From: Shinella zoogloeoides
GTDB taxonomy: Bacteria > Pseudomonadota > Alphaproteobacteria > Rhizobiales > Rhizobiaceae
Assembly (NCBI RefSeq): GCF_030733845.1
Contig: NZ_CP132311.1
Coordinates: 2,173,501-2,237,500, forward strand
Reading direction: 5' to 3'
Length of the DNA stretch: 64,000 nt
Under the pieces are notes generated by a model, which did no database searches, was not told the DNA's origin, and saw only the letters and a list, made by a program, of their open reading frames with translations. This document shows positions 1,120-21,753 of the stretch, piece after piece (the stretch's first letter is position 1; each line of letters opens with the position of its first letter). A program made the position numbers and the translations under genes.

Positions 1120-1156
1120 GGGGAAACAGGCCTCACAACAACAAGGGAACAGCGTG

Positions 1157-2320: not shown

Positions 2321-2322
2321 TA

Positions 2323-2475: not shown

Positions 2476-2523
2476 CGCCACACCCACCTCTCCCGGTCCA
2501 CTATTCGCAAGAGGACAAACGCA

Positions 2524-3390
2524 ATGCCCCTGACGATGACGACGAAAAGACGGCTGGTGACGACGGCGCTGCTGGCGCCCGCGTCCCTCTGGCTGTTCGT
2601 CTTCCTCGTGCTGCCCTTCATCGCCATGTTGGTCTTTTCCGTCGGCGAGCGCGGACCGGCGGGCGGCTATCAGGCGGCGTTCACCTTCGCGCAATACGCC
2701 AACCTGCCGGCCCGTTCCGCCGCCTACTGGAACACGCTGATGCTGGCGCCGGCGGGCGCCTTCCTCTGCCTGCTGGTCGCCTATCCGACCGCCTATTACC
2801 TCGCCGTCAAGGCAAGCCCACGCCACCGGCTGCTACTTGTCTCGCTGGTCGTGGTGCCCTTCTGGACGAGCCTTCTCGTGCGCACCTATGCCTGGATGTA
2901 CATCCTCGGCTCGCGCGGCATCCCGAGCCTCCTCGACATGATCGGCATTGCGGACGTACGCCTGCTCAACACGCCGGGCGCCGTGCTGCTCGGCATCGTC
3001 TACGGCTACCTGCCGCTGATGATCATGCCGATCTATGTCAGCCTCGAAAAGCTCGACCGCCGTCTGCTCGAAGCCTCGGCCGATCTCGGCGCGAAGCCGG
3101 TCTCGACCTTCTTCTCGGTCACCCTGCCGCTCTCGCTGCCGGGCGTCATGACGGGCGTCGCGCTCGTCACCATCCTGCTGCTCGGCGAATATCTCATCCC
3201 GCAGCTTCTCGGGGGCGGCAAGGTGTTCTTCATCGGCAACGCGCTGGTCGATCTCTTCCTGCAATCGCGCAACTGGCCGTTCGGCTCGGCCATCGCCGTT
3301 ACGCTGGTCGCCATTGTCGTGGTGGTGCTAATGGTCGCCATGCGCATCGCCTGGCGCATTTCCGGCACGAGACAGGTGGACCTCGTCTGA
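2524..3390 (+). CDS. ABC importer permease, PotB type
   Basis: This is the first inner-membrane permease of the PotABCD-type system, 288 residues with about six membrane segments. The first lies at roughly 15-40 (SLWLFVFLVLPFIAMLVFS). The coupling-helix EAA motif reads EASADLGAKPVSTF near residue 180 and contacts the ATPase. The stop overlaps the start of the next permease gene (ATGA), as expected for translational coupling. The ATG follows the repeat element by about 50 bases. Confidence 0.92.
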   Translation: MPLTMTTKRRLVTTALLAPASLWLFVFLVLPFIAMLVFSVGERGPAGGYQAAFTFAQYANLPARSAAYWNTLMLAPAGAFLCLLVAYPTAYYLAVKASPRHRLLLVSLVVVPFWTSLLVRTYAWMYILGSRGIPSLLDMIGIADVRLLNTPGAVLLGIVYGYLPLMIMPIYVSLEKLDRRLLEASADLGAKPVSTFFSVTLPLSLPGVMTGVALVTILLLGEYLIPQLLGGGKVFFIGNALVDLFLQSRNWPFGSAIAVTLVAIVVVVLMVAMRIAWRISGTRQVDLV

Positions 3391-4211
3391 TGCGCGCCCT
3401 GATCACCGCCGTCTATCTCTTCCTCTACGCGCCGATCGCGCTGGTCGTGCTGTTCTCCTTCAATGCGGGACGCAGTGCCAGCGAGTTCACCGGCTTCTCG
3501 ACGCAATGGTACGGCAAGGCGCTCGCCAATCCGTTCCTCGTCACGGCGCTGCAGAACAGCCTGATCATCGCCGTCGTCAGCGCCACACTCGCCGCCGTCT
3601 TTGGCACCATGGCCGCCCTCGGCCTCGAACGGCTAGGCGCGCGCACCCGCGCCGTCTTCGACGGCCTGCTCGCCGCCGCCATCGTCGTGCCGGGCGTCGT
3701 CATCGGCATCGCGACGCTGGTCGCGCTGGTCGCCGTCTTCGGCATCGTCAATCCGGCCATCGCCGGCCTCTGGCCGGGCGACAAGCCGCCGCAGCTCGGC
3801 CTCGGCTACGGCTCGATCATCGCCGCGCACGGCCTCTTCACCATGGCGCTCGTAACCATGATCGTGAAGGCACGCATCGCCACGCTCGGGCGCGACATCG
3901 TCGAGGCCTCCGCCGATCTCTACGCGACGCCGCTCACCACCTTCCGCGATATCGTGCTGCCGCAGATCCTGCCCTCGGTGCTGGCCGGGTTCCTGCTCGC
4001 CTTCACCTTCTCCTTCGACGATTTCATCGTGGCCTTCTTCGTCGCGGGCTCGAAGACGACGCTGCCGATCTACGTCTTCGCCTCCATCCGCCGCGGCGTG
4101 ACGCCGGAGGTCAACGCCATCGCGACCATGGTGCTCGTCGCCTCGCTGCTGCTAATCCTCATTGCCCGCCTGCTGATGCGGGAAAAGACGAAATCCCCTG
4201 CCGGAGAATAA
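3390..4211 (+). CDS. ABC importer permease, PotC type
   Basis: This is the second permease of the same importer, 273 residues, with N-terminal membrane segment ALITAVYLFLYAPIALVVL and further segments to the end. The EAA loop (EASADLYATPLTTFRDI) and the following SFSFDDFIVAFF segment are typical of PotC. The ATG at 3390 overlaps the previous stop codon. The reading frame is open further upstream, but that stretch overlaps the repeat and the potB-type gene in another frame and is not coding. Three bases separate it from the dehydrogenase gene. Confidence 0.92.
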   Translation: MRALITAVYLFLYAPIALVVLFSFNAGRSASEFTGFSTQWYGKALANPFLVTALQNSLIIAVVSATLAAVFGTMAALGLERLGARTRAVFDGLLAAAIVVPGVVIGIATLVALVAVFGIVNPAIAGLWPGDKPPQLGLGYGSIIAAHGLFTMALVTMIVKARIATLGRDIVEASADLYATPLTTFRDIVLPQILPSVLAGFLLAFTFSFDDFIVAFFVAGSKTTLPIYVFASIRRGVTPEVNAIATMVLVASLLLILIARLLMREKTKSPAGE

Positions 4212-7635: not shown

Positions 7636-8208
7636 TCATGTTCCTTGACGATTGCCATCAAGGAACGCCCGTCCGCGCGGCGAAAGCCGGTAGCCGGCGG
7701 CAAGGCTTTCCGTCAGCCCCAAATCCTTGAGCTGCCTGATCTTTCGCTTGAGCACCAGCTTCTCCACGCCGAGCCGTTCCGCCATCTCGGTGGCGGTGTG
7801 CCCGTCCCTTTCGGCGATCAGGGAAAGAACGGCGCGGGTCCAGGGCTTCGTGCGGTCGAGCCGCGCAAGCTGCCCTTCGAGGGCAGCGGTTTCGGCCGCA
7901 TCGAGCGTATCGTTTTCGCGCAGTTTTTCCCGCGGATCCTCGCCCGCGACATGAAAGGCGATGCGGTACAGCGAACCCTCCGGCCGAAGGTCGCGCTCCA
8001 GCGCCGCGCGGGAGGCATAGCCGGCCGCGCGGATGTCGGTGTTGGAAATGGCTTCAAGCGGAAGGGTCTCGACGCTGTCAATGGCAAGAACGCCCACGGC
8101 GGTCCGCAAGGTGCCGCCGGCCCGGACGGTCGGCCTGGTCCACCGCCGAAAGGCGACCGTCACCGCGCCGCTCGCGATCCCTTCAAGCACTTTCGCCTTG
8201 AACAGCAT
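7636..8208 (-). CDS. ASCH-like domain plus winged-helix protein
   Basis: This 190-residue protein has two parts. Residues 1-110 (MLFKAKVLEG, then TRPTVRAGGTLRT and VGVLAIDSVETL) look like an ASCH/PUA-type nucleic-acid-binding fold. Residues 120-190 look like a winged helix (TATEMAERLGVEKLVLKRKIRQL, then a beta wing ending in LSPRGRAFL). It begins eight bases after the urocanase-like gene and so closes that operon. It may regulate the operon or act on RNA; I do not know a characterised member. The ATG at 8208 is preferred over an upstream in-frame start. Confidence 0.6.
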   Translation of the reverse strand: MLFKAKVLEGIASGAVTVAFRRWTRPTVRAGGTLRTAVGVLAIDSVETLPLEAISNTDIRAAGYASRAALERDLRPEGSLYRIAFHVAGEDPREKLRENDTLDAAETAALEGQLARLDRTKPWTRAVLSLIAERDGHTATEMAERLGVEKLVLKRKIRQLKDLGLTESLAAGYRLSPRGRAFLDGNRQGT

Positions 8209-8216
8209 TCCGCCTC

Positions 8217-9884
8217 TCAAGCATTGCCGATCTTCACGTAGCCGATGCCCTTCTTCTCGATCTCGTCGAACGAATCCTCGTAGCCCGCATCCGCATAGCG
8301 GATGACGCCGAGCGACGTGTCGTTCGTCAGAGCGTGCTCCAGCCGCTCCGCGCCGTCAGCCGTGCCGTCGGCGACCAGCGTCACGCCGCAGCTCGTCATG
8401 TAGCCTGCATAGCCGCCGCCGCCGGAATGGACGACGACGAGATCGGCCATGGAGGAGGAAAGCAGCATGGCGTCGAGCAGCGGCCAATCGGCGATGGCGT
8501 CCGAGCCGTCCTTCATGCGCTCCGTCATGATGTTGGGATGCGCCATCGCGCCGGCATCGAGATGGTCGCGCGAAAAGGCGATCGGCCCGTTCAGCTCGCC
8601 CGCCGCGACCAGCTTGTTGACCGCCAGCGCCAGCGCCGTGCGCTCGCCATGGCCGAGCCAGGCGATGCGTGCCGGCAGGCCCTCGAACGGCACATTCTCG
8701 CGCGCAAGCCGGATCCAGTTGGTGACGATGCGGTTGTCGGGGAACATCTCCAGCACGAGATCGTCGATGCGGGCGATGTCGCTCTCTTCGCCCGACAGCG
8801 CCATCCAGCGGAACGGGCCGATGGCGCGCGCGAAGAGCGGCCGCAGATAGGCCTCGGTGAAGATCGGGATGTCGAAGGCATTGTCGACGCCGCCTTCCCG
8901 CGCCTGGGTGCGGATGAGGTTGCCGTTGTCGAAGACTTCCGAACCCCTTTTCTGGAACTCCAGCATGGCCGAGACATGCTCGACGATGGAGGCGCGGCTC
9001 GCCGCCATCAACTGCCCCTGCCCGTCGTCGCGCAGGCCCTTCACCTGATCGAGGCTCATGCCCTTCGGCACGTAGCCGTAGACGAGGTCGTGCGCCGACG
9101 TCTGGTCGGTGACGATGTCGGGCACGATGCCGCGCCGGGCGATCTCCGGGTAGATTTCCGCCGCGTTGCCGACAAGGCCGATCGAGGTGGCGCGCTTTTC
9201 GTTCACCGCCTCATCGATCATCGAAAGCGCCGTATCGAGGTCCGGAGCGACATGTTCGAGATAGCCGACGGCCTTGCGGGCCGCCGCGCGCGCCGGGTCG
9301 ATATCGACGCAGAGGATCGCCGCGCCCGCCATACGGCCGGCAAGCGGCTGCGCACCACCCATGCCGCCAAGGCCGGCGGTCAGGATGAAGCGGCCGGCAA
9401 GGCTGCCATCGAAGCGCTTTTCCGCGATGCGCATGAAGATTTCATAGGTGCCCTGGATGACGCCCTGGCTGCCGATATACTGCCAGGCACCGGCCGTCAG
9501 CCCGCCCCAGCAGATCAGCCCCTTGCGCTGGAGCTCGTAGAACACCTCAGCCTTCGCCCACTGCCCGACGATGTTGCAGTTCGCCATGATGACCAGCGGC
9601 GCCTTCGCATGGGTCTTGAGCAGGCCGACCGGCTTGCCGGACTGGATGACCAGCGTCTGGTCCTCGTCCATCTCCGTGAGCGCCTTGACGATGGCTTTGT
9701 GCGCCGCCCAGTTGCGCGCCGCCTTGCCGAGCGCGGCATAGACGATGAGATTGTCCGGGTCCTCGCCGACCGACAGCACGTTTTCCAGCAGGCGCAGCAA
9801 CGCCTCCTGCCGCCAGCCTTTTGCGCGCAGCACCGGGCCGCTCGGGATCGGGTAGTTCGGGTGACGCGGGTTCGGTCTGGGCAT
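8217..9884 (-). CDS. Urocanase-family hydratase lacking the conserved Cys; thiourocanate hydratase candidate
   Basis: This 555-residue protein is full length for urocanate hydratase (HutU). It has the NAD-binding GLGGMGGAQP (171-180), TDQTSAHD (259-266) and SRDHLDAGAMA. It departs from HutU at the active site. The usual GLPARICW segment reads GLPARIAW, so the conserved Cys is Ala408, and the HHGGGVGMGFSQHSG region reads VHSGGGGYAGYMTSCG. HutU enzymes hydrate urocanate with tightly bound NAD. These changes, and an operon with no HutI or HutG, suggest a modified substrate such as thiourocanate. The start at 9884 has a GGAGAC site. A repeat separates it from the DUF917 gene. Confidence 0.85.
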   Translation of the reverse strand: MPRPNPRHPNYPIPSGPVLRAKGWRQEALLRLLENVLSVGEDPDNLIVYAALGKAARNWAAHKAIVKALTEMDEDQTLVIQSGKPVGLLKTHAKAPLVIMANCNIVGQWAKAEVFYELQRKGLICWGGLTAGAWQYIGSQGVIQGTYEIFMRIAEKRFDGSLAGRFILTAGLGGMGGAQPLAGRMAGAAILCVDIDPARAAARKAVGYLEHVAPDLDTALSMIDEAVNEKRATSIGLVGNAAEIYPEIARRGIVPDIVTDQTSAHDLVYGYVPKGMSLDQVKGLRDDGQGQLMAASRASIVEHVSAMLEFQKRGSEVFDNGNLIRTQAREGGVDNAFDIPIFTEAYLRPLFARAIGPFRWMALSGEESDIARIDDLVLEMFPDNRIVTNWIRLARENVPFEGLPARIAWLGHGERTALALAVNKLVAAGELNGPIAFSRDHLDAGAMAHPNIMTERMKDGSDAIADWPLLDAMLLSSSMADLVVVHSGGGGYAGYMTSCGVTLVADGTADGAERLEHALTNDTSLGVIRYADAGYEDSFDEIEKKGIGYVKIGNA

Positions 9885-9913
9885 GGTCGTCTCCTGTTCG
9901 TTTCGCGGGGCGC

Positions 9914-9976
9914 TGCCCCTCATCCGCCTGCCGGCACCTTCTCCCCGCAAGCGGGGAGAAGGTTAGGGTGAGGGGC
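9914..9976. repeat. Palindromic intergenic repeat, family B
   Basis: Left arm CCCCTCATCCGCCTGCCGGC, inner hairpin CTTCTCCCCGC-AA-GCGGGGAGAAG, then GGTTAGGGTGAGGGG. Related copies lie at 18574, 30060 and 34871. It sits between two genes of the same operon (DUF917 and urocanase-like). Confidence 0.75.
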
Positions 9977-9983
9977 AACGCAC

Positions 9984-11075
9984 TTAGCTGCCAAGCGCAT
10001 ACCGCGCCAGCTCGATCCCCATCGCCTTTTCCACGGACGGATAGACCGTCGGGTCGAGCACGCTGGAGGCGAGCGGAATGATCGTCTTGGGGACGTGCAG
10101 CACGAAGATCTTCATGCCGACTTCGAGCTGGCCGACGCTGAGCGGTTCGCCCTCCGGCGAGAGCGTGGTGATGACGTCGGGGAACGTGGCAAGGCGCCTG
10201 CCGTCTGCCGATTCCACCGCCATATATTCGTTCATGACATGCAGCACCGTCGCGCTGTCGCCCGTGCCGAGCGTCACCGTGCCGATGTCGAAGGCTTCCT
10301 TGGTATAGACCACCGACTTGTCGGTGATCGTGCCCTCGGAAAGGATCGAGCCGCCGGTCGTCTCGACGATGGCGTCGATGATCGCCGAACCGCCCCTGCC
10401 CTCGGCCGCGATGATCGCCTCGCCGAGCTTCAACGCGAGCGAGATGCCGCCGAGCGCCGCATTCTTGCGCACATAGCAGGCGCGCAGCGGGTTGCGGCAG
10501 GAGGCGATGAAGCCGCCGGACATGTCGGACGCCGTGCGCAGGATCGGCGAGACCTTCGCGGTCGCGCCGCGCACCACAAGCTCGATATAGCGGTTCTCCT
10601 CGCGGTTTCCGCCGACGGCCGTCTGGATCATCTGCTCGGGCGAGCCCGCCATGCCGATCGAACCCATGTCGCCGGTCGGATGCGCGCGCATGTCGCCGAC
10701 GGCATCCAGCACCTTGGTGCCGAGGATGGCCGACGGCAGCCAGCCGTTCAGCGTCGAGGACTTGCCGTTCTGCCCCACCATCAGCGCGGCGACCTTCTCG
10801 CCCAGCGCCTCCTGCAGAAGCTCCACCGCCTTCACATAGTCGACGCCGCGCATTTCCCAGGGCGTGGTCGAGGCCGGCGCGCCGATGGCCGCCGCCGTCG
10901 CCACCCAGTCGTCATCGGAAAGCTCGTCGATGGAGACCAGCTCCGGCTTGCCGATAGAGACCGCGGCATAGCCGAGCATGCGGCCATGGTCCGCCCAGCC
11001 GCCGCCGCCGGCCGCATAGACCGAGCCGCCCTTGACCGCGGCCTCGACGTCTTTTTCCTTTAGAATCCGGCCCAT
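9984..11075 (-). CDS. DUF917 family protein, possible thiohydantoin desulfurase
   Basis: This cytosolic protein of 363 residues matches the DUF917 family, whose members adjoin hydantoinase genes. Visible landmarks are YAAGGGGWADHGRMLG near residue 20-36, PTGDMGSIGMAGSPEQMIQ, and a C-terminal LSVGQLEVGMKIFVLHVPK. It starts at 11075, sharing one base with the stop of the carbamoylase gene (TGATG), so the two are coupled. If the operon degrades ergothioneine, the one step without an obvious enzyme is replacing sulfur by oxygen on thiohydantoin-propionate, and this protein is the candidate by elimination. That role is inference. Confidence 0.75.
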   Translation of the reverse strand: MGRILKEKDVEAAVKGGSVYAAGGGGWADHGRMLGYAAVSIGKPELVSIDELSDDDWVATAAAIGAPASTTPWEMRGVDYVKAVELLQEALGEKVAALMVGQNGKSSTLNGWLPSAILGTKVLDAVGDMRAHPTGDMGSIGMAGSPEQMIQTAVGGNREENRYIELVVRGATAKVSPILRTASDMSGGFIASCRNPLRACYVRKNAALGGISLALKLGEAIIAAEGRGGSAIIDAIVETTGGSILSEGTITDKSVVYTKEAFDIGTVTLGTGDSATVLHVMNEYMAVESADGRRLATFPDVITTLSPEGEPLSVGQLEVGMKIFVLHVPKTIIPLASSVLDPTVYPSVEKAMGIELARYALGS

Positions 11076-12352
11076 CAGGCGCCCTCCTGAATCACTTTTT
11101 GAAGTTTTCCGTCGAGTTGAATCACTGCGCTGAGAAGCACCGCCGCGCCGAGTGCGATGTCGTCCGTCTCGGCGAACTCTTCCGGCGCATGGCTGCGCCC
11201 GCCAAGGCACGGCACGAAGATCATCGCCGCCCGCGTCACCTTGGCCATGAAGGCCGTGTCGTGTCCGGCACCGGAGGCCATACGACGGTGACTCGCGCCC
11301 GCCGTCTCGCAGGCGGCGTCCAGCACGTCGAGCAGCAGCGCATCACCCGGCGTCGGCATGTTGTCGGAGATGCGGCGCGGCGGCGCGATGACGGTTCCCG
11401 TCTCGCGCGCGGTCTGCTCCGCCAGTTGCTCCACGGAGGCGGCGAAGACATCCATGGTCGTGCGCTCTTCCGCCCGCGCATCGATCAGCAGGCGCGCGCG
11501 GGAGGGAACCACATTGGCGGCGTTCGGCTCGATGGAGAACTCGCCCACCGTCGCGGTGAAATGCCCCGCCCCTTCGGAAAACGATTTCGCCAGCGCCTCG
11601 ATGCCCGTCACCAGCCGCGCCGCGGCGGCGAGCGCATCGGCCCGATTTCCCATCGGCGTCGTGCCGGCATGATCGGCCCGGCCCTCGACGACGATCTCGA
11701 TGCGCGTGATCCCGGCGATTGCAGTCACAACGCCGATGTCGCGCTTTTCCGTCTCCAGCACCGGCCCCTGCTCGATATGCAGTTCGAGGAAGGCCGCGAT
11801 ATCCTTGCGCGCCTCGGCGGCAATACGCGCGGGATCGCCGCCCGCGTCGCGAATGCCCTGTTCCAGCGTCAGGCCGCCGCTCTCGCGCGTCAGCCATTCC
11901 TGCGGCAAAACGCCGGCCATGCCGCGGCTGCCGATGCAGGAGACGCCGAAGATCGACACTTCCTCAGCAAGGAAATCGACCACTTCGAGATCGTGATCGA
12001 GTTCGATGCCCTGGTCCGACAGCGCGCGCGCCACCTCCAGCGCCACCGCGACGCCGGCAATGCCGTCGTAGCGACCGCCGTCCGGCACTGTGTCGGAATG
12101 CGAGCCGAGCATGATCGTGCCGAGGCCCGGCTTCCGGCCCGGCCGCCGGGCGACGAGATTGCCCGCCGCGTCGATGCGCGTCTCGAGCCCCGCGGCCTGA
12201 AACCTGTCGCGGAGAAAATCCCGCCCCGCCGGGAATTGAGCGGTGAAGGCACGCCGCGTATAGGGCCGGCCCGGCTCGGTGAGCCCGGCGAGCCCGTCGA
12301 TCACATCCCCGATACGGGCGGGATCGACCGGCAGGTTGCTTGCGCGGGCCAT
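11075..12352 (-). CDS. M20-family N-carbamoyl-amino-acid hydrolase
   Basis: This Zn-dependent amidohydrolase of 425 residues belongs to the hydantoinase/carbamoylase branch that includes allantoate amidohydrolase. Metal-site residues are in place: SHSDTVPDGGRYDG (His85 and Asp96), FLAEEVS (Glu130-131), LHIEQGPVLE (His192) and a late SGAGHD. The dimerisation region has ITRIEIVVEGRADHAGTTPMG. The likely reaction is N-carbamoyl-L-glutamate to glutamate, ammonia and CO2. The start at 12352 overlaps the upstream stop by one base, and the stop overlaps the DUF917 start, so three genes are translationally coupled. Confidence 0.88.
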   Translation of the reverse strand: MARASNLPVDPARIGDVIDGLAGLTEPGRPYTRRAFTAQFPAGRDFLRDRFQAAGLETRIDAAGNLVARRPGRKPGLGTIMLGSHSDTVPDGGRYDGIAGVAVALEVARALSDQGIELDHDLEVVDFLAEEVSIFGVSCIGSRGMAGVLPQEWLTRESGGLTLEQGIRDAGGDPARIAAEARKDIAAFLELHIEQGPVLETEKRDIGVVTAIAGITRIEIVVEGRADHAGTTPMGNRADALAAAARLVTGIEALAKSFSEGAGHFTATVGEFSIEPNAANVVPSRARLLIDARAEERTTMDVFAASVEQLAEQTARETGTVIAPPRRISDNMPTPGDALLLDVLDAACETAGASHRRMASGAGHDTAFMAKVTRAAMIFVPCLGGRSHAPEEFAETDDIALGAAVLLSAVIQLDGKLQKVIQEGA

Positions 12353-13731
12353 CAGCGCGCACCGGCGCAAACGAGCGTCGGCAACGGCCGCACGAAGGCG
12401 CCGGTGCCCGGCTCGGCAAGCACGTCCTTGCCGTCGAAAGCGAGCTTTCCGCGCAGCCAGGTCGCCGAGACGCGCCACGGCAGGCGAATGCCCTGATAGG
12501 GCGACCAGCCGACGACGTTGTGGCCGCTTTCCGCAGCGTCGTAGGTGTAGGGCTCAGGCGTCAGCACGGTGATGTCGGCATCCTTGCCGACCTCCAGCGC
12601 GCCCTTGACGTGATCCAGCCGGAAGTGGCGGGCGGGATTCAGTGTCATCAGCTCGGCGGCGCGCGTCAGCGGAATGCCGCGCTCCAGCGCGCCCTTGACG
12701 AAGAGCGGCACCATGACCTCCAGCCCCGGCACGCCCGATGCATTGGCCAGCATGTCCGGATTGGTCTTGCGGTCCTCCGACCAGCTTACATGGTCGGTGG
12801 AAACCAGCGTGACATTGCCCTCGGCGACATGCCGCCAGAGCTTTTCCACCTCGGCGCGCGGGCGGATCGGCGGATTGATCTTCGCCTTGCCGCCGAGCCG
12901 CGCGACGTCGTTCTCCTCGTCGAGCGTCAGGTAGTGGATGCAGCATTCGATGGTCGCGCGAAAACCCTGCGCCCGGTAGGCGCTCGCGATCTCGTAGCCA
13001 CGGCCGAGCGAGCAATGCACCACATGCGCCGGGCACCCGGTCTGCGCGCCCGTCTCGTAGATCTGGTTGGAGGCGAGCAGTTCCGTCAGCGGCGGGCGCG
13101 ACAGGCCGTGCGCGCGGTAATCCGTGATGCCGGCGGCCTTCACCTTGGCTATCGCCGCGCGCACCGCCTCGTCGTCCTCGTTGTGCACGCCGGCCGTCAG
13201 CCCGGTCGGCGCGATGGCGCGGAAGCAATCCTCCAGCAGCGCGGCGGGAATGCGCGGAAAACGCTTCGGGTCCGTGCCGAAGGTGGAGAACTTGAAGGCC
13301 GCGACGCCCGCCTCGACCATCTCGCCGATGCGCGCCGGCCCCTCCTCCGGGTCGACCGTGCCGTAGAGCGCGAAATCGACGCGCGCCTGCGGCGAAGCGT
13401 GGTCGACCTTGCGCTTCACGGCTTCCGCCGATGAGACGAGATTGCCCTCGTCATAGGGCATGTCGACGATGGTCGTCACGCCGCCGGCCGCGGCCGAGCG
13501 CGTCGACCAGAGGAAATCCTCCTGGTTCTTCTGCGACAGGGAATGGACCTGCGCATCGATGGCGCCCGGCAGGATCAGTGCGCCGGAAAGGTCGTGCCGT
13601 TCCCTGGCGGCCGGCATCACGCCCTGCCCGACATGCACCACCTTGCCGTCCCGAACCACGACATGGCCGCCTTCGACGATGCGGTCCGCAAGGACCACTG
13701 TGCCTTTGAGAACGAGATCGAAATCGGCCAT
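12352..13731 (-). CDS. Cyclic amidohydrolase (hydantoinase/dihydroorotase family) with H-to-Q metal-site change
   Basis: This 459-residue amidohydrolase would open a cyclic ureide such as hydantoin-5-propionate to N-carbamoylglutamate. The TIM-barrel metal centre is mostly intact: bridging Lys147 (AAFKFST), His183 (GVHNEDD), His239 (VVHCSLG) and Asp313 (STDHVSW). The first strand, however, reads DAQVHSLSQ (59-67), so the usual first His of the HxH pair is Gln61. A GGAG site stands seven bases before the ATG. It is the second gene of the lyase operon. Confidence 0.86.
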   Translation of the reverse strand: MADFDLVLKGTVVLADRIVEGGHVVVRDGKVVHVGQGVMPAARERHDLSGALILPGAIDAQVHSLSQKNQEDFLWSTRSAAAGGVTTIVDMPYDEGNLVSSAEAVKRKVDHASPQARVDFALYGTVDPEEGPARIGEMVEAGVAAFKFSTFGTDPKRFPRIPAALLEDCFRAIAPTGLTAGVHNEDDEAVRAAIAKVKAAGITDYRAHGLSRPPLTELLASNQIYETGAQTGCPAHVVHCSLGRGYEIASAYRAQGFRATIECCIHYLTLDEENDVARLGGKAKINPPIRPRAEVEKLWRHVAEGNVTLVSTDHVSWSEDRKTNPDMLANASGVPGLEVMVPLFVKGALERGIPLTRAAELMTLNPARHFRLDHVKGALEVGKDADITVLTPEPYTYDAAESGHNVVGWSPYQGIRLPWRVSATWLRGKLAFDGKDVLAEPGTGAFVRPLPTLVCAGAR

Positions 13732-13743
13732 TGCCTGTCTCCG

Positions 13744-15282
13744 TCAGGGCTTGAGGGCAAAGAAAGCGTCGAAATCCGCCATGGGCGCGGCCGCGACGAA
13801 GGCGGCAAGCGCCTCGGGGCTGGCAAGGTCGCGGTCGAGCGCCTCGATCTCGGCCGAAAGCGGCCGGTCCTTGCGGTAGAACGGGCTGATCGCCCGCGTG
13901 CGCTGGTAGGCGACAAGCGCTACCCCCTCGACATTGTCGCCGGCCAGGTCGATCGCCTGTGCGGACAGCATGGCTTCGAGCGCGGCGAGCTGGCGCAGGT
14001 CCCGCACCTGGCTTTCCATGCGCTCGACGATGAGCGGCAGGAAGGTCGCCTCCTCTTCCAGCCCGCCGGCGACGACGATGGACTGCGCCGAGATCGGCAC
14101 GGCCAGCGACTGGATGCGCATGTAGAGCTCGACGGCGAGCTTGAGGAGCGGCCCGAAGCCGGTCGCCGCCTCGCCGGGCGCGACGAGATTGACCGGCAGG
14201 TTGCGGCGAACGCCGTTGGCAAGCAGCACGCAGCGGTTCAGCACGTTGCGGGCGAGATGGGCAAAGCCGGTCTGTGCCGCCTCGACATAGAGCGTGGTCG
14301 ACAGCGGCAGCGAGCCGCCGGACGCCATGACGTGATTGTCCAGCACGACCGGATTGTCGTCCGACTGCGCCGTCGCCTCGACGATGCGCTCGGCCGCATT
14401 CATCAGCGTGTCGAGGCAGGCGCCGAAGACCTGCGCGGTCATGCGCAGGCTGAGCGGATCGTGGATCGCCGAGGGTTTGGGCCAATTGCCCGAGGCGGCC
14501 TGTGCCTCGAACCAGGTGCCGGCCAGCGCCTCGCCATGGGCGGAGAGCCGCGCGGCGACCCGCCACGGATCGGCCGAGGCGCCGAGCGCCAGCGAGGACA
14601 GCACGCCCGTCACCATGAGGTTGCGGATCGCCTTGGCCGCCTCGCGCACCACATTGGCGGCGGCGGCGTGCGAGATGGCGTTGACGCTGAGCGCAGCCAG
14701 CGCGTCGCGCGGCTGCATGCGGTAGGGGTTGAGGCCGGCGCGCTTCAGCGCTTCCGTCGCCGGCAGGCGTTCGCCGCCGTACCACGCCTCGCCCTCGCCG
14801 GTCAGCACCGCCGCGATCTGCCCCATCAGGCCGATATCGGCGCAGCCCATCGAACCATGGCGCCGCACGACCGGCACGACATCCTTTTCCAGCAGCGCCA
14901 GGAAGGCGTCGATCAGCTCCGGGCTGCAGCCCGAATAGCCGCCGAGCGCGGTGTTGATGCGGATGGCCATCGCCTTGCGCACGATCGGCAGGTTGAAAGG
15001 TTCGCCGGTGCCGAAATGATGCGCCTTGACGAGGTTGTTGTTGAATTCGAGCAGGTCGTCCGCCGTCCAGAGCTTGTCCTTCATCGAGCCGACGCCGGTA
15101 TTGGCGCCGTAGATCGGCAGGCCGGTGGCGAGGCGGTCGGTGATGACATGGCGCGCCGTATCGACACGCCCCATGCCGATCTCGCAGGCGACGGCGCGCC
15201 GCGTTCCCGCGCCGATCGCTTCGAGGGTCGCGAAGTCGAGCGGTTGACCGGTGAGATAGAGCATGTCGGCGGAAGCGAGCAT
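13744..15282 (-). CDS. HAL-family lyase without MIO tripeptide; ergothionase candidate
   Basis: This 512-residue protein has the histidine/phenylalanine ammonia-lyase fold: YGANTGVGS (58-66) with the conserved Tyr58, NLVKAHHFGTGEP and RINTALGGYSG. In true HAL the tripeptide ASG after GSVG forms the electrophilic MIO group. Here GSMG (143-146) is followed by CAD (147-149), so MIO cannot form. The QDxYSLR motif is HDPLSLR (274-280), losing another catalytic Tyr. A non-MIO elimination fits ergothionase, which expels trimethylamine from ergothioneine to leave thiourocanate. It is the first gene of the operon and diverges from a LysR gene. Confidence 0.82.
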   Translation of the reverse strand: MLASADMLYLTGQPLDFATLEAIGAGTRRAVACEIGMGRVDTARHVITDRLATGLPIYGANTGVGSMKDKLWTADDLLEFNNNLVKAHHFGTGEPFNLPIVRKAMAIRINTALGGYSGCSPELIDAFLALLEKDVVPVVRRHGSMGCADIGLMGQIAAVLTGEGEAWYGGERLPATEALKRAGLNPYRMQPRDALAALSVNAISHAAAANVVREAAKAIRNLMVTGVLSSLALGASADPWRVAARLSAHGEALAGTWFEAQAASGNWPKPSAIHDPLSLRMTAQVFGACLDTLMNAAERIVEATAQSDDNPVVLDNHVMASGGSLPLSTTLYVEAAQTGFAHLARNVLNRCVLLANGVRRNLPVNLVAPGEAATGFGPLLKLAVELYMRIQSLAVPISAQSIVVAGGLEEEATFLPLIVERMESQVRDLRQLAALEAMLSAQAIDLAGDNVEGVALVAYQRTRAISPFYRKDRPLSAEIEALDRDLASPEALAAFVAAAPMADFDAFFALKP

Positions 15283-15348
15283 TTTGGGAAAGCCTGTTTT
15301 TCAACGTGGATGTTATGCGGAACGCGCGCCGAGCGTATATCCCAAAAT
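15281..15348. promoter_or_regulatory. Divergent promoter region with 9-base inverted repeat
   Basis: The gap between the lyase and LysR genes holds ATTTTGGGA at 15281-15289 and its exact complement TCCCAAAAT at 15340-15348. The first arm includes the start of the lyase gene. The palindrome CCGTACGG follows at 15349-15356. LysR proteins bind such dyads in divergent promoters; the assignment is inferred. Confidence 0.35.
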
Positions 15349-15400
15349 CCGTACGGTTCATGCTACAAGCCGAACAGACGAGAAAACCCTAGGCCCCGCC

Positions 15401-16570
15401 ATGGATCTATCCACCCTTTGCCTTGTGCACAGCATTCTGGAGGAACGCGGCATCCGCAGGGCGGCCTCGGCGGCCGGCCGCCCGGCCTCCAGCGCCAGCG
15501 CCGCGCTTCGTCGTGTCGAGGCCGTGCTGTCCGTGCCGCTGGTGCGGCGCGACGGACAGGCCCTCGTGCCGACGCTCGACGCCGAGGGCCGCCTGCCGCG
15601 CTTTGCCGAGATCGCCCGCGCCGCCGCGGCGCTCACCGCGCTCGGCGATGCCTCGCGGGCGCCGCCCGCCATATCGCTCGCCGCCCTCGCCCGCTTCGTC
15701 ACGGCGGCGCGGGCCGGCAGCATCAACGCCGCGGCAAAAACCCTCGGCCTCGGCCAGCCGCAGCTCACGCGCCAGCTCAGCCATCTGGAGGAGGCGGTCG
15801 GCTGCAAGCTGCTCGCCCGTTCTGCGGCCGGCATAAGCTGCACGCCGGCGGGCCTGGAGGCCCTCGGCCTTGCCGAGCGTATCGGCGTGGCCTGGGATGC
15901 GCTTTCGGCCGCCGCCGCCGAGCGCTTCCGCCGCAGCGCCGCCACCTGGCGGCTCGGCACGGTCATTCCCTTCGGCCATGAAAGCGAGATCGCCGCCACG
16001 CTCGCCCGCCTTGCCGTCGAGTGGCGCGCGGTACGGCCCCGCCAGCCGCTCTTCCTGTCCTCCACCACGGCGGACGAGCTCGTCTCCGGCCTCAAGAACC
16101 GCCGGTTCGACCTGATCCTGCTCGACACCGACCACTATCCCGCCGAGTTCGAGGGCAGCCTGATCGGCCGCTCACAACTGGCGCTCGCCGCCCCGCGCAC
16201 CCTCGGCGAGGCCGGGCCGCAGGATTTGGCCGCCCTGCTGTGCCGCCATCCCATCGCCGTACCGAGCCCGCGCAGCGGCCTGCGGCAGATGACGGACCGC
16301 TTCCTGGAGGCGACGCTCTCCCCAGCCGAGCGGGCGCGGCTGACGCTGGTCGAGGTCGATTCGATCCCCGTTATCATCAACCTCGTGCTGGACCACGGCC
16401 ATCTCTCGGTCCTGCCCGAACATTCCGTCGCCAATATCAGCCCTCCGCCGACCTTGCTGCCGCTCGACCCGGCATACCAGCAATCGCTCAGCCTCGTCTG
16501 GCCGCGCGATGCCCTGTCGCGGCAGGCTGCCGAGACGATGATGCGGCTGCTTGGGAAAACTAGTTCTTAG
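15401..16570 (+). CDS. LysR-family regulator with two tandem HTH domains
   Basis: This 389-residue transcription factor has an unusual duplication. Residues 1-65 form one LysR winged helix (GIRRAASAAGRPASSASAAL, then LVRRDGQALVPT). Residues about 90-155 form a second (GSINAAAKTLGLGQPQLTRQ, then LLARSAAGISCTPAG). A LysR substrate-binding domain follows to the end. Standard LysR proteins have one HTH and about 300 residues. It diverges from the lyase operon and is its probable regulator. It overlaps the convergent GlxA-type gene by 11 bases. Confidence 0.85.
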   Translation: MDLSTLCLVHSILEERGIRRAASAAGRPASSASAALRRVEAVLSVPLVRRDGQALVPTLDAEGRLPRFAEIARAAAALTALGDASRAPPAISLAALARFVTAARAGSINAAAKTLGLGQPQLTRQLSHLEEAVGCKLLARSAAGISCTPAGLEALGLAERIGVAWDALSAAAAERFRRSAATWRLGTVIPFGHESEIAATLARLAVEWRAVRPRQPLFLSSTTADELVSGLKNRRFDLILLDTDHYPAEFEGSLIGRSQLALAAPRTLGEAGPQDLAALLCRHPIAVPSPRSGLRQMTDRFLEATLSPAERARLTLVEVDSIPVIINLVLDHGHLSVLPEHSVANISPPPTLLPLDPAYQQSLSLVWPRDALSRQAAETMMRLLGKTSS

Positions 16571-17534
16571 CGCCGGTCCGCAGCCGCCGCCGCGTCTCCG
16601 TCGGGCTTTCGTGATAGTGCGCGCGATAGCTGCGCGAGAAGGCGGAGGAGGAATTGAAGCCGGTGAGCGCGGCGATATCGGCGAATTCGGACCTGGTCTC
16701 GATGACCTTGCGCCGCGCCGCGTTGAGGCGGAGCGCCAGATAGTGCTGGTGCGGGGCGACGCCCATCGATTCCTGGAAAAGGTCCTGGAGGTGCCGGGCG
16801 CTGATCCCGACGCGCCTTGCCAGCCGCGTCAGCGTCAGCGGCGCATCCACCGTCTCCTCCATCAGCCGCACGGCCTGGCCGACGCGCTGGTCGGCGACGC
16901 GCATGTTGCCGAGCGCCGGCACCTGCAGAAGGCCGCCGGTACGCTCGTGCTCGTAGATGAAGAGGCGCGAGACCTCCAGCGCCAGCGAATAGCCCTGCCG
17001 CCGGCGGATGATCTCCAGCATCAGGTCGAGCGTCGGCAGCGAGCCGCCGGTGGTGACGCGCTTGCCGTCGATGACGTAGCGCTCGCGCATCACGGCGATC
17101 TGCGGATAGCGGGAGGCGAATTCCTCCATGTCCTCCCAGTGGATCGTCACCGAATGGCCGTCGAGCAGGCTCGCCTCGGCCAGCAGCCAGCTGCCCGATT
17201 CGATGCCGGCCATCATCGTGCGGTGACGCGCCGTCTGCGAAAGCTGGCGCCGCAACAGAGGCGTCGCACTCATCTGCCATTGATAGGACGAGAGCACGAA
17301 GAGCGGGAAAACCTCCTTCTCCGGCCGGAACACACCGTCGACCGGAACGGGAATACGGCTGCGCGTCTCGATCGGCTGGCCGTCCGGCGAAAAGATGCGC
17401 CAGCGGTATAGGTCCTGGCCGGAGATGCGGTTGGCCGCGCGCAGGGGTTCGATGACCGAGGCGACGAGGATGAGGTTCGTCTCGGGCAGCACGAGAATGT
17501 CGATGTCGAGCGTATCGGAAGAGGGATCGAGCAT
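16560..17534 (-). CDS. GlxA-type AraC-family regulator (CdhR/GbdR-like)
   Basis: This 324-residue activator has an N-terminal DJ-1/PfpI-like sensing domain (about 8-190; DILVLPETNLILVASVIEPLRAAN) and a C-terminal AraC DNA-binding domain (about 220-315; LTRLARRVGISARHLQDLF and FNSSSAFSRSYRAHY). Proteins of this build control carnitine and glycine betaine catabolism in Pseudomonas (CdhR and GbdR). The gene diverges from carnitine genes, supporting that role. The ATG at 17534 has an AGGA site; an in-frame TTG 12 codons upstream is less likely. Confidence 0.85.
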   Translation of the reverse strand: MLDPSSDTLDIDILVLPETNLILVASVIEPLRAANRISGQDLYRWRIFSPDGQPIETRSRIPVPVDGVFRPEKEVFPLFVLSSYQWQMSATPLLRRQLSQTARHRTMMAGIESGSWLLAEASLLDGHSVTIHWEDMEEFASRYPQIAVMRERYVIDGKRVTTGGSLPTLDLMLEIIRRRQGYSLALEVSRLFIYEHERTGGLLQVPALGNMRVADQRVGQAVRLMEETVDAPLTLTRLARRVGISARHLQDLFQESMGVAPHQHYLALRLNAARRKVIETRSEFADIAALTGFNSSSAFSRSYRAHYHESPTETRRRLRTGAKN

Positions 17535-17648
17535 GGCGCAATCCTGCTTTTCTATCTCTCGAATTGTCAAGGATGGATCCGAAAAGTGAAAGCACTACGC
17601 CTTCTCTTGGCTCGTAATGGTTCCAACGAGAATACCGGGAGAACGACA

Positions 17649-18563
17649 ATGCCCTTAGCCATGAACCGTGACGTCTTCATCACCTGCGCCGTCACCGGCT
17701 CCGGCGACACCGCCGGCAAATCCCCCCATGTGCCGCGCTCGCCGAAACAGATCGCCGAATCGGCCATCGAGGCCGCAAAGGCCGGCGCCGCCGTCGTGCA
17801 CTGCCACGTCCGCGATCCGGAAACCGGTGCGCCGAGCCGGCGCAACAACCTCTACCGCGAGGTGACCGAGCGCATTCGCGACGCCGAGGTGGACGTCGTG
17901 CTCAACCTCACCGCCGGCATGGGCGGCGACATGATCTTCGGCAACACCGAGCAGCCCCTGCCGCTGAACCCCAACGGCACCGACATGGCCGGCGCCACTG
18001 AGCGCGTGTCCCACGTCGCCGAATGTCTGCCGGAAATCTGCACGCTCGACTGCGGCACGATGAACTTCTCGCTCGGCGACTACGTGATGACCAACACGCC
18101 GTCCATGCTGCGCGCCATGGCCAAGATGATGACGGACCTTGGCGTGCGGCCCGAGATCGAAGCCTTCGACACCGGCCATCTCTGGTTCGCCAAGCAGCTC
18201 GTGGAAGAAGGCCTGATCGAGGACCCGGTGCTGATTCAGCTCTGCATGGGCATTCCGTGGGGCGCGCCCGACGATCTCAACACCTATATGGCGATGGTCA
18301 ACAACGTGCCCGCCAACTGGACCTTCTCGGCCTTCTCCATCGGCCGCAACGCCATGGCCTATCCGGCCGCGGCCGTGCTTGCCGGCGGCAATGTCCGCGT
18401 CGGTCTCGAGGACAACCTCTATGTCGGCAAGGGCCAGCTCGCCACCAATGCGCAGCTCGTCGACAAGGCCGTCAACATCATCGAAAGCATGGGCGCCCGC
18501 GTCATCGGCCCGGCCGAAGTGCGCGAGAAGCTGAAACTGACAAAGCGCGCGCCGCGCGGCTGA
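17649..18563 (+). CDS. cdhC: Beta-keto acid cleavage enzyme (BKACE/DUF849), dehydrocarnitine cleavage
   Basis: This 304-residue Zn-dependent enzyme would combine 3-dehydrocarnitine with acetyl-CoA to give betainyl-CoA and acetoacetate. BKACE landmarks are ITCAVTGSGDT (11-21), the metal motif HCHVRDPETG (51-60), EAFDTGHLWF and the C-terminal VGLEDNLYVGKGQLA. A GGGAGA site precedes the ATG at 17649; an upstream in-frame start lacks one. The next gene encodes carnitine dehydrogenase fused to a thioesterase, which is what fixes the substrate as dehydrocarnitine rather than another beta-keto acid. Confidence 0.88.
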   Translation: MPLAMNRDVFITCAVTGSGDTAGKSPHVPRSPKQIAESAIEAAKAGAAVVHCHVRDPETGAPSRRNNLYREVTERIRDAEVDVVLNLTAGMGGDMIFGNTEQPLPLNPNGTDMAGATERVSHVAECLPEICTLDCGTMNFSLGDYVMTNTPSMLRAMAKMMTDLGVRPEIEAFDTGHLWFAKQLVEEGLIEDPVLIQLCMGIPWGAPDDLNTYMAMVNNVPANWTFSAFSIGRNAMAYPAAAVLAGGNVRVGLEDNLYVGKGQLATNAQLVDKAVNIIESMGARVIGPAEVREKLKLTKRAPRG

Positions 18564-18573
18564 CGGACGAGAG

Positions 18574-18692
18574 CCCCCCTCATCCGCCCTTCGGGCACCT
18601 TCTCCCCGCTGGGGAGAAGGGAGAAAGGCCGGGGCTTTGCCACAAGTCCCTTCTCCCCTCGGGGAGAAGGTGCCGGCAGGCAGATGAGGGGG
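18574..18692. repeat. Palindromic intergenic repeat, family B
   Basis: Inverted arms CCCCCTCATCCGCCCTTCGG and the complement-like TGCCGGCAGGCAGATGAGGGGG enclose two CTTCTCCCC/GGGGAGAAG hairpins. It lies between two carnitine genes on the same strand. Confidence 0.75.
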
Positions 18693-18727
18693 AGCCGCCC
18701 CACACCGAGAAAAATACGAGGGAACGC

Positions 18728-20227
18728 ATGAGCATGAGCACCATCAACAAGGCAGCCTGTGTCGGCGGCGGCGTCATCGGGGGGGCGTGGGTCGCGCGCT
18801 TCGCGCTCGCCGGCATCGACGTCAAGGTCTTCGATCCGCATCCGGAAGCCGAGCGTATCATCGGCGAGGTCATGGCCAATGCGGAGCGCGCCTATGGCAT
18901 GCTCACCATGGCGCCGCTGCCGCCGAAAGGCAAGGTCATCTTCTGCAAGAGCTTGGAAGAGGCCGTGCAAGACGCTGACTGGATTCAGGAAAGCGTGCCC
19001 GAGCGGCTGGAGCTGAAGCGCGGCGTGCTCACCCAGATCGACGCGGCCGCAAGACCCGATGCGCTGATCGGTTCCTCCACGTCGGGCCTGATGCCGACCG
19101 ATCTCCAGCGCGACATGAAGCACCCCGAGCGCCTGTTCGTGGCCCATCCCTACAACCCCGTCTACCTGCTGCCGCTCGCCGAGCTCGTCGGAGGCCAGAA
19201 GACCTCCCGTGCCGTGCTGGAAGACGCCAAGGCCAAGCTCGCCCCCATCGGCATGAAGGGCGTGATCATCAACAAGGAAATCGAGGCCTTCGTCGGCGAC
19301 CGCCTGCTCGAAGCCGTCTGGCGCGAAGGCCTGTGGCTGATCAAGGACGACATCTGCGACACGGAAACGCTGGATGACGTGATCCGCTATTCCTTCGGCA
19401 TGCGCTGGGCGCAGATGGGCATGTTCGAGACCTACCGCATCGCTGGCGGCGAGGCGGGCATGCGCCACTTCCTCGCCCAGTTCGGCCCCTGCCTCTCCTG
19501 GCCCTGGACCAAGCTCACCGACGTCGTAGACCTCGACGACGCGCTGGTGGAGAAGATCGCCGGTCAGTCCGATGCCCAGTCCGGCGCGCGCGGCATCCGC
19601 GAGCTGGAGCGCATCCGCGACCAGAACCTCGTCGGCATCATGCACGCGCTGAAGGCCGGCGACGAAGGCCGCGGCTGGGGCTCGGGCAAGCTGCTCGCCG
19701 AATTCGAGGAACACCTCTGGGCCAAGGCCGGCAAGGCGAAAGTCGAGGTCTCCGCTTCGGAGCCGCTGCGTCTCGTCGACACCAAGGTCAACGCGGCGTG
19801 GGTCGACTACAACGGCCACATGACGGAGCACCGCTACCTCCAGCTCTTCGGCGACACGTCGGACGCGCTGCTCCGCCTCATCGGCGTCGATTTCGCCTAT
19901 GTCGAGGCCGGCCACAGCTACTACACGGTGGAAACCCACATCCGCCATCTCGGCGAAGGCAAGCTCGGCCAGGCGCTCTACACGACGCTCCAGCTCCTTT
20001 CCTCGGACAGGAAGCGCCTGCACTTCTTCACCCGCATCCACGACGCCGCCACCGGCGACGTCATCGCGACGGCGGAGCAGATGATGGTCCATGTGGACTC
20101 CAAGGCCGGCAAGAGCGCCGATGCGCCCGCAGAGGTGCTGGCGAAGATCGCGCCGATCGCCGAGGCCCATGCGAAGCTGGCCCTGCCGGAAGGTGCGGGC
20201 CGCAGCGTCGGGCAGAGGAAAGCGTAA
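18728..20227 (+). CDS. cdhA: L-carnitine dehydrogenase fused to betainyl-CoA thioesterase
   Basis: This is a bifunctional 499-residue enzyme. Residues 5-320 are a 3-hydroxyacyl-CoA dehydrogenase-type carnitine 3-dehydrogenase, with NAD Rossmann motif GGGVIGGAW (13-21), HPYNP (140-144) in place of HFFNP, and the DRLLEAVWREGLWL helix. Residues about 345-480 are a 4-hydroxybenzoyl-CoA-thioesterase hotdog domain (WVDYNGHM, 359-366). Together they would oxidise carnitine and release glycine betaine from betainyl-CoA, the two ends of the CdhABC route. In Pseudomonas these are separate proteins. The ATG at 18728 follows a repeat element. Confidence 0.9.
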   Translation: MSMSTINKAACVGGGVIGGAWVARFALAGIDVKVFDPHPEAERIIGEVMANAERAYGMLTMAPLPPKGKVIFCKSLEEAVQDADWIQESVPERLELKRGVLTQIDAAARPDALIGSSTSGLMPTDLQRDMKHPERLFVAHPYNPVYLLPLAELVGGQKTSRAVLEDAKAKLAPIGMKGVIINKEIEAFVGDRLLEAVWREGLWLIKDDICDTETLDDVIRYSFGMRWAQMGMFETYRIAGGEAGMRHFLAQFGPCLSWPWTKLTDVVDLDDALVEKIAGQSDAQSGARGIRELERIRDQNLVGIMHALKAGDEGRGWGSGKLLAEFEEHLWAKAGKAKVEVSASEPLRLVDTKVNAAWVDYNGHMTEHRYLQLFGDTSDALLRLIGVDFAYVEAGHSYYTVETHIRHLGEGKLGQALYTTLQLLSSDRKRLHFFTRIHDAATGDVIATAEQMMVHVDSKAGKSADAPAEVLAKIAPIAEAHAKLALPEGAGRSVGQRKA

Positions 20228-20241
20228 GGCGCAAGCCTCCA

Positions 20242-20359
20242 CCCCCCTCTGCCCTGCCGGGCATCTCCCCCTCAAGGGGGGAGATCGGCAGGAGGCAAGG
20301 CGGTGCCACAACCAATCTCCCCCCTTGAGGGGGAGATGCCCGGCAGGGCAGAGGGGGGG
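20242..20359. repeat. RIME-like palindromic intergenic repeat, family A
   Basis: This is a near-perfect inverted repeat. CCCCCCTCTGCCCTGCCGGG opens it and the exact complement closes it, with CTCCCCCTCAAGG/CCTTGAGGGGGAG arms inside. It is the best-preserved copy in the window and lies between carnitine dehydrogenase and acyl-CoA dehydrogenase genes. Confidence 0.85.
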
Positions 20360-20408
20360 TAGCCACAACACGCACCTCCCGTAAAAGACATACCGGGAGG
20401 ACTTTTCA

Positions 20409-21569
20409 ATGAATTTCGCACTCACCGACGAACAGCAGATGATCGTGGATACGGTCCGCTCCTTCGTCGAAACGGAAATCTATCCGCATGAGAACGAGGT
20501 CGAGCGCACCGGCCATGTGCCGCCGGAACTCGGCCAGGAGATCGCCCGCAAGTGCAAGGAGATCGGCTTCTTCGGCTGCAACATGCCCGAAGAGGTCGGC
20601 GGCGCGGGCCTCGACCATACCTCCTTCACGCTGGTGGAGCGCGAGCTCGGCCGCGGCTCGATGGCGCTGACGGTCTTCTTCGGCCGCCCCTCGGGCATCC
20701 TGATGGCCTGCAACGACGAGCAGCGCGAGCGTTACCTGCTGCCGGCCGTCAGCGGCGAGAAGTTCGACGCGCTTGCCATGACCGAGCCGGACGCGGGCTC
20801 GGACGTGCGCGGCATGAAGTGTTTTGCGAGGCAGGACGGCGACGACTGGGTCGTCAACGGCACCAAGCATTTCATCAGCCATGCCAACATCGCCGATTTC
20901 GTCATCGTCTTCATCGCGACGGGCGAGGAGGATACGCCGCGCGGCAAGAAGAAGCTGATCACCTGCTTCCTCGTCGACCGCGGCACGCCGGGCTTCGATA
21001 TCCGCGACGGCTACAATTCCGTCTCGCACCGCGGCTACAAGAACTGCATCCTCAATTTCGACGAATGCCGCCTGCCCTCCTCGCAGATCCTCGGCGAGGT
21101 GCACAAGGGCTTCGACATCGCCAACGACTGGCTCTACGCGACGCGCCTCACCGTCGCCGCCACCTCCGTCGGCAGAGCTCGCCGCGCCTTCGACTATGCC
21201 CTCAACTACGCCGCCGAGCGCAAACAGTTCGGCAAGCCGATCGGCGCGAACCAGGGCGTCTCCTTCAAGCTCGCCGACATGATCACCGAGATCGACGCAG
21301 CCGACCTGCTGACGCTCTCGGCCGCCTGGCGGCTCGACCAGGGCCTGCCGTCGAACCGCGAGATCGCCTCGGCCAAGGTCTATGCCACGGAAATGCTCGC
21401 CCGCGTCACCGACGAAGCGATCCAGATCTTCGGCGGCATGGGCCTGATGGACGACCTGCCGCTCGCCCGCTTCTGGCGCGACGCCCGCGTCGAGCGCATC
21501 TGGGACGGCACCTCTGAAATCCAGCGCCACATCATCAGCCGCGACCTGCTCCGGCCGCTGGGGGCTTGA
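20409..21569 (+). CDS. Acyl-CoA dehydrogenase, probable gamma-butyrobetainyl-CoA dehydrogenase
   Basis: This FAD flavoprotein of 386 residues has the standard acyl-CoA dehydrogenase layout: N-terminal helical domain, MTEPDAGSDVRG (FAD and substrate loop, about 123-134), then a C-terminal helical domain with RKQFGKPIG and EIQRHIISR. Where most members have catalytic Glu in YEGTSEI, this one has WDGTSEI (Asp366). Flanking carnitine genes and a CaiD-like hydratase suggest oxidation of gamma-butyrobetainyl-CoA to crotonobetainyl-CoA. A GGGAGGA site precedes the ATG. Confidence 0.85.
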   Translation: MNFALTDEQQMIVDTVRSFVETEIYPHENEVERTGHVPPELGQEIARKCKEIGFFGCNMPEEVGGAGLDHTSFTLVERELGRGSMALTVFFGRPSGILMACNDEQRERYLLPAVSGEKFDALAMTEPDAGSDVRGMKCFARQDGDDWVVNGTKHFISHANIADFVIVFIATGEEDTPRGKKKLITCFLVDRGTPGFDIRDGYNSVSHRGYKNCILNFDECRLPSSQILGEVHKGFDIANDWLYATRLTVAATSVGRARRAFDYALNYAAERKQFGKPIGANQGVSFKLADMITEIDAADLLTLSAAWRLDQGLPSNREIASAKVYATEMLARVTDEAIQIFGGMGLMDDLPLARFWRDARVERIWDGTSEIQRHIISRDLLRPLGA

Positions 21570-21588
21570 GGATGGGGATGGCGATGAA

Positions 21589-21749: not shown

Positions 21750-21753
21750 TCCC

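Follow-up and report, generated by a model that had tools for sequence, protein, structure and literature searches.

The ert operon lies in a window of 64,000 nucleotides from Shinella zoogloeoides (NZ_CP132311.1, positions 2,173,501 to 2,237,500), by which we mean the whole stretch of DNA analyzed and to which coordinates refer unless another locus is named. The strain is a soil bacterium. Five contiguous enzyme genes, ertA-ertD-ertE-ertC-ertB, occupy positions 8217–15282 of the minus strand, separated by 1-bp overlaps or by gaps of 12 and 99 bp, and a LysR-type gene, for which we propose the name ertR, diverges from them. ertA (13744–15282) encodes a 512-residue ergothionase-like lyase (Pfam Lyase_aromatic) that lacks the 4-methylideneimidazole-5-one (MIO) triad. 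It is followed by ertD (12352–13731), for a cyclic amidohydrolase of 459 residues assigned as hydantoin-5-propionate amidohydrolase, with a metal motif QxH rather than HxH; ertE (11075–12352), for an M20 protein assigned as N-carbamyl-L-glutamate amidohydrolase; ertC (9984–11075), for a thiohydantoin desulfurase of the DUF917 or S-Me-THD-like type (Pfam S-Me-THD_N and S-Me-THD_C); and ertB (8217–9884), for a thiourocanate hydratase of the urocanase family, whose start codon was chosen by the conserved sequence MPRPNPRHP. On the plus strand, ertR (15401–16570; start codon set at the MD conserved among its relatives) encodes a regulator with two tandem winged helices, recognized as two HTH_1 stretches in Pfam and in an AlphaFold2 model. 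Aligning the gap between ertA and ertR with those of relatives revealed a conserved 40-bp element, a probable operator, at 15337–15376 on the minus strand, which ends in TTTTGGGATAT at 15337–15347. An initial annotation made from the letters alone had described a lyase, a cyclic amidohydrolase, an M20 protein, a DUF917 protein and a urocanase-like protein on one strand with a divergent LysR gene, and our analysis confirms this description.

Enzyme families and diagnostic residues

Four of the five enzymes pass the cut-offs of NCBIfam equivalog models for the ergothioneine pathway, the lyase being the exception. The ertB product scores 1048.7 bits against the thiourocanate hydratase model NF058530 (cut-off 930) and finds its best PDB match in 7ned (820 bits), the ertC product scores 603.5 bits against the thiohydantoin desulfurase model NF058529 (cut-off 440), and ErtD and ErtE score 796.6 and 591.9 bits against NF058538 and NF058540 (cut-offs 600 and 520). 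For ErtA, the best solved relative by sequence is the Treponema ergothionase 6s7j (191.8 bits; the best ammonia-lyase reaches 148.0), and the AlphaFold2 model (predicted local distance difference test, pLDDT, 89.9; predicted template-modeling score, pTM, 0.91) superimposes on 6s7j with a root-mean-square deviation of 2.1–2.2 Å and a template-modeling (TM) score of 0.88–0.89, compared with 3.5 Å and 0.86 for Pseudomonas putida HutH. In a tree, the ErtA proteins form one clade, from which HutH, 7tqr and a third HAL homologue of the genome branch off at 96/96; the window's ErtA is 92–95% identical to the lyases of eleven Shinella records. The third HAL homologue (L061, 7094–8587; C2:3136093–3137586) scores 458.5 bits against hutH (cut-off 539), has a deleted MIO triad in the alignment (GSVG---YLTH) and, by eye, is the last gene of an operon encoding a ProXWV-type ATP-binding cassette (ABC) transporter.

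We searched 82 genomic loci, including two of the genome's own (L062 and L063); the 80 loci from named genomes are the best 80 of 262. Residue counts were taken over 80 ErtA, 74 ErtB and 75 ErtD proteins. The Ala-Ser-Gly of HutH that forms MIO is replaced in ErtA, which reads GS[IM]GCAD in 80/80 loci, and alignment with the genome's own HutH confirms the loss; in more distant ErtA rows the triad is also gone, with a variable Cys (GTAD, GAAD). The Tyr of the HutH motif QDPY is Leu in 72 of 80 ErtA proteins by pattern, and four of the remaining eight, when inspected, read QDALSLR and thus have Leu too. In ErtB, all 74 proteins read GLPARIAW, with Ala replacing a Cys of the genome's own HutU, a residue that we take to be the urocanase hallmark, and HHGGGVGMG of HutU has become HSGGGGYAG, again in 74/74. 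A further change, not mentioned in the initial annotation, concerns ErtD, where all 75 relatives have Gln in place of the first His of the HxH metal motif; the best solved relative of ErtD, the L-hydantoinase 1gkr, has His at this position. ErtA has the aromatic-amino-acid-lyase fold without the MIO triad, MIO being absent from ergothionase according to a passage of the review PMC13405746, and neither the triad of a hut lyase nor the Cys of a hut hydratase motif is found in ErtA and ErtB.

These results bear out much of the initial annotation. The hallmark residues that it reported lost from both hut-like enzymes are indeed missing, and the alignments with ergothionase, HutH and HutU that it proposed place the lyase closest to 6s7j. 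Its assignment of the gene set to the steps of ergothioneine degradation also stands, given the four equivalog matches and a lyase nearest to ergothionase in both sequence and fold. We conclude that the operon very probably encodes a catabolic pathway from ergothioneine to glutamate. Read from the named families, ErtA would act on ergothioneine without the help of an MIO cofactor, eliminating trimethylamine and yielding thiourocanate, which ErtB would hydrate to thiohydantoin propionate. ErtC would then exchange sulfur for oxygen, releasing sulfide and forming hydantoin-5-propionate, ErtD would open the ring to give N-carbamoyl-glutamate, and ErtE would convert this to glutamate, CO2 and ammonia. 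Control of the operon is probably exerted by ErtR at the 40-bp intergenic element, and ergothioneine is probably taken up by a betaine-type ABC importer whose genes lie at another place in the genome. The chemistry of the pathway is already known, and the operon adds another member.

Conservation of the cassette and its transporters

Among 397 genomes of the order, ErtA (E ≤ 1e-90) was found in 28 and ErtC (E ≤ 1e-70) in 32, and since 26 genomes contain both, the pairing is not due to chance. Near ertA in the 80 named-genome loci lie genes for ErtD (76), ErtC (76), ErtE (75), ErtB (75) and a LysR relative (58). In one genome (G359, L042) the pathway is split: ErtA with its OpuAC-type importer and ErtC are encoded on one contig, about 94 kb apart.

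The transporter genes tend to vary with the lyase. A binding protein of the OpuAC (quaternary-amine) type is encoded at 20 of 27 ErtA loci from other genomes of the order and at none of six ert loci without ErtA, two of which (L206 and L209) comprise a single ert gene or a contig of 6 kb. An amino-acid-type binding protein is encoded at three of the six loci and a binding protein of the tripartite ATP-independent periplasmic (TRAP) type at one. Instead of the betaine-type importer, cassettes without ertA tend to have amino-acid ABC, TRAP or major facilitator superfamily (MFS) transporters, as expected if only the lyase encounters a quaternary amine. The rule is not strict, as at one locus (L051) ErtA is accompanied by binding proteins of the OpuAC and the TRAP type. 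The window's genome encodes a complete betaine-type importer (contig 2, C2:2979396–2983199), its only match to the importer of relatives, which is unlinked to the operon and 66–76% identical to theirs. We also considered the Pot-type ABC genes at 79–4211 as the importer and rejected them: their permease is 25–34% like the cassette permease of relatives and, when linked, these genes accompany carnitine genes.

Two Paracoccus records illustrate the variation. P. aminophilus pAMI4 (L216) encodes an amino-acid ABC transporter, with no ErtA in the stretch. In P. denitrificans (NZ_CP141053.1, L217), downstream of ErtD-E-C-B come a gene that looks MFS-like by eye and then a lyase (17154–18818 of that locus) that matches the Treponema ergothionase with 279.0 bits, the next best match scoring 149.8. 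Since this lyase is encoded beside ErtD-E-C-B, the cassette and regulator are tied to a relative of a proven ergothionase. From its signal-peptide-like start, recognized by eye, it is possible that the protein is an exported ergothionase. At the pAMI4 locus and beside a distant ErtD-E-C-B block in another genome (G288, L214), a CoA-transferase gene and two acyl-CoA dehydrogenase genes adjoin; our guess is that their products might return a reduced derivative of thiourocanate to the pathway.

Three further genomes (G336, G050 and G087; L210, L211 and L212) encode a tandem-helix LysR relative and ErtD together with a UbiD-like protein and a different lyase, about 30% like ErtA, which has the motif SVGASD and no complete Ala-Ser-Gly. 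L212 adds a UbiX-like flavoprotein, and no ErtB or ErtC is encoded at any of the three loci, which likely represent a different pathway that shares ErtD.

Carnitine dehydrogenase genes occur in the flanks of 50/80 named-genome loci. As the loci come from related rhizobia, this linkage may simply be inherited. In the window, a probable carnitine operon at 16560–24593 encodes a carnitine 3-dehydrogenase (901.8 bits, cut-off 592), as well as a beta-keto acid cleavage-type enzyme, an acyl-CoA dehydrogenase, a ligase and an AraC regulator that is nearest to GbdR and below the GbdR cut-off. Farther away, at 44278–51545, an MttB-family gene (Pfam MTTB 360.9 bits; trimethylamine methyltransferase 331.7 bits, cut-off 525) is adjoined by two FAD oxidoreductase-like genes. 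On the other side, 8 bp after ertB, a minus-strand gene (7636–8208) encodes a small winged-helix protein (Pfam HTH_20, 28.9 bits, cut-off 27) whose N-terminal part appears ASCH-like by eye. This gene is present in six of the 80 named-genome loci, namely six of 11 Shinella loci and none of the 69 others, and its membership in the ert system is doubtful.

Points against an ergothioneine pathway and competing substrates

Several observations weigh against our assignment. No NCBIfam model scores the lyase above its cut-off (hutH gives 220.8 bits, cut-off 539), and its assignment is by homology to a solved ergothionase with which it shares about 29% identity. In the tree, the Treponema ergothionase sits on a long branch and, because of such branches, cannot be placed firmly with ErtA. 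ErtB also exceeds the general hutU cut-off (686.9 bits, cut-off 375), and on the M20 protein the general Zn-hydrolase model PRK12893.1-5 outscores the ErtE model (659.3 versus 591.9 bits). Because ErtD and the regulator accompany another lyase in three genomes without ErtC, neither is specific for ergothioneine. With regard to uptake, no importer gene adjoins the operon, an OpuAC-type gene lies near ertA in 5 of the 80 named-genome loci, and the genome's own unlinked importer matches OsmF (358.7 bits) better than EgtU (102.9 bits), so it is not of the EgtU type; its region lacks the operator core. Finally, no gamma-glutamylmethylamide synthetase, which would point to the use of trimethylamine, scores above cut-off in the genome.

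Could the operon serve a different substrate? One alternative is a second route for histidine or methylhistidine, in which the lyase would deaminate a histidine derivative and the urocanase-like protein would hydrate urocanate. ErtA and ErtB are homologous to HutH and HutU, and ErtB passes the general hutU cut-off as noted, but the MIO triad and the urocanase Cys are lost, the thiourocanate hydratase model scores far above hutU, and the cassette includes a desulfurase. Moreover, a canonical hut set lies about 0.95 Mb away, where HutC, HutF, HutI, HutH and HutG exceed their cut-offs and HutU scores 975.9 bits, also over cut-off. The initial annotation had noted HutI, HutG and HutF as absent, which holds for the operon and not for the genome, since all three are encoded at this separate locus. 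From the residues, the model scores and the separate hut set, we reject histidine utilization as highly improbable. Equally remote is degradation of S-methyl-ergothioneine, for which NCBIfam has sister models: these match the same ert proteins, but all three fall below cut-off (hydratase 734.9 of 880, desulfurase 287.2 of 450, the third 383.9 of 650), and we reject this substrate as well. Ergothioneine in a different oxidation state, for instance as the sulfonate, is a very unlikely substrate, if marginally less so. Yan et al. are said to have reconstituted a bacterial ergothioneine sulfonate pathway in 2022. In a passage of the review PMC13405746, this study is cited in connection with the related bacterium Agrobacterium radiobacter; the assignments of ErtC as thiohydantoin desulfurase and ErtB as thiourocanate hydratase fit unoxidized ergothioneine. 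Self-made ergothioneine as the source is also unlikely, as no egtD match was found in the genome, in a search that had no positive control, since 14 control genomes likewise gave none over cut-off.

The tandem regulator, its probable operator and known systems

If ergothioneine is the substrate, how might the operon be regulated? ErtR has the HTH_1 and substrate domains of a LysR-type protein, with a second HTH_1 in addition. It is possible that the N-terminal winged helix has degenerated to a remnant unable to bind DNA, leaving ErtR an ordinary LysR regulator, an explanation that we take seriously and consider the less probable one. Consistent with a remnant, the first HTH_1 match is weaker than the second (35.9 versus 59.3 bits), the model of ErtR (pLDDT 88.9) has a pTM of 0.56, and a hidden Markov model of the second domain found the first in 3 of 52 rows at E < 1e-3 (the rows being the window's protein and those relatives with 340–440 residues). 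As this last approach failed as proof, the case for a first domain rests on Pfam and the model. Against a remnant, two HTH_1 stretches were found in 8/8 proteins tested, the window's and seven relatives, and across the 52 rows the first domain has conserved residues, with no match among 260 shuffles. In addition, the model has complete winged-helix topology (helix-helix-helix-strand-strand-helix) twice, at residues 5–82 and 95–183, and the 40-bp element is itself conserved. Of the 55 reading frames that share the genome's 56 HTH_1 matches, ertR alone carries two (150 of 160 candidates scored).

To describe the element, we aligned 46 gaps, those of the window and of loci L064–L112 with a divergent LysR match and a gap of 40–260 bp. 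TTTGGGATAT is exact in 40 of the 46, and the 40-bp arrangement is present in 33. The core TTTTGGGATAT occurs once in the 5.18-Mb genome, before ertA, and the reversed control pattern does not occur. Within 300 bp upstream of ertA, GGGATAT is found at 73/80 loci, compared with 73 of 4100 random 300-bp windows from the same loci. GGGATATCCC is present in several more distant relatives, including an ertA-less cassette (L204), and one Rhizobium (L213) has GGGATATC between a LysR relative and a betaine-type importer. In the two Paracoccus records, GGGATAT lies 56 and 80 bp upstream of ertD, with other copies in the stretch, and no GGGATAT is present in the gap of L210, the tandem-regulator relative with the different lyase. 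Judged by its sequence conservation, the 40-bp element is a probable operator.

What most deserves further attention is the regulator, the operator and the exchangeable front end. We tentatively suggest, with the balance slightly short of even, that alphaproteobacterial ergothioneine catabolism is a modular regulon in which an undescribed LysR subclass reads one 40-bp operator through two tandem winged helices. Its front end would be either a cytoplasmic ErtA paired with an importer for quaternary amines, which some rhizobia would have at a second site together with a separate copy of the regulator and operator, or, where ErtA is lacking, amino-acid ABC, TRAP or MFS transporters for thiourocanate that an exported lyase or neighbors produce outside the cell. 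Among the matches listed in a search of the open-access literature, there was no LysR protein with two helix-turn-helix domains, and the passages of PMC5882156 mention none; the ErtA-less transporter swap, the 40-bp element, the Gln of ErtD and the tandem LysR protein were not found in the literature searched.

By consuming ergothioneine, bacteria deplete a dietary antioxidant, and they would be expected to give off trimethylamine and sulfide. The review PMC13405746 calls ergothionase rare, allowing for divergent homologues, and describes a search with one Burkholderia ergothionase that gave similarity to ammonia-lyases only. In our analysis, the lyase family is present, at the cut-off used, in 28 of 397 genomes of a single order, 26 of them with the desulfurase. 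The operator and two-headed regulator could help to locate regulons of this kind in genomes whose annotation calls the lyase a histidine ammonia-lyase.

How does the ert operon compare with known systems? Beliaeva, Leisinger and Seebeck reportedly reconstituted five-step bacterial ergothioneine catabolism in vitro in 2021 (doi 10.1021/acschembio.0c00968). The enzyme set here is the same as in that route and in the NCBIfam ert models, four of the five proteins exceeding the curated cut-offs, but the lyase is covered by no model. ErtA resembles the T. denticola ergothionase most closely in sequence and predicted fold, and both proteins lack Ala-Ser-Gly and have Leu at the position of the HutH Tyr; they differ in reading GCAD and GEGD, respectively. 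Although canonical hut (HutH, HutU, HutI, HutG and HutF) begins with a homologous lyase and hydratase, the later ert steps are those of a hydantoinase and a carbamoylase. As for the regulator, the 50 PDB chains listed for ErtR have 279–326 residues and span 303–334 alignment columns, leaving no room for a second winged helix. ErtR shares its second winged helix, linker helix and effector domain with LysR-type proteins such as CbnR, BenM and OxyR, and differs from them in its additional N-terminal winged helix.

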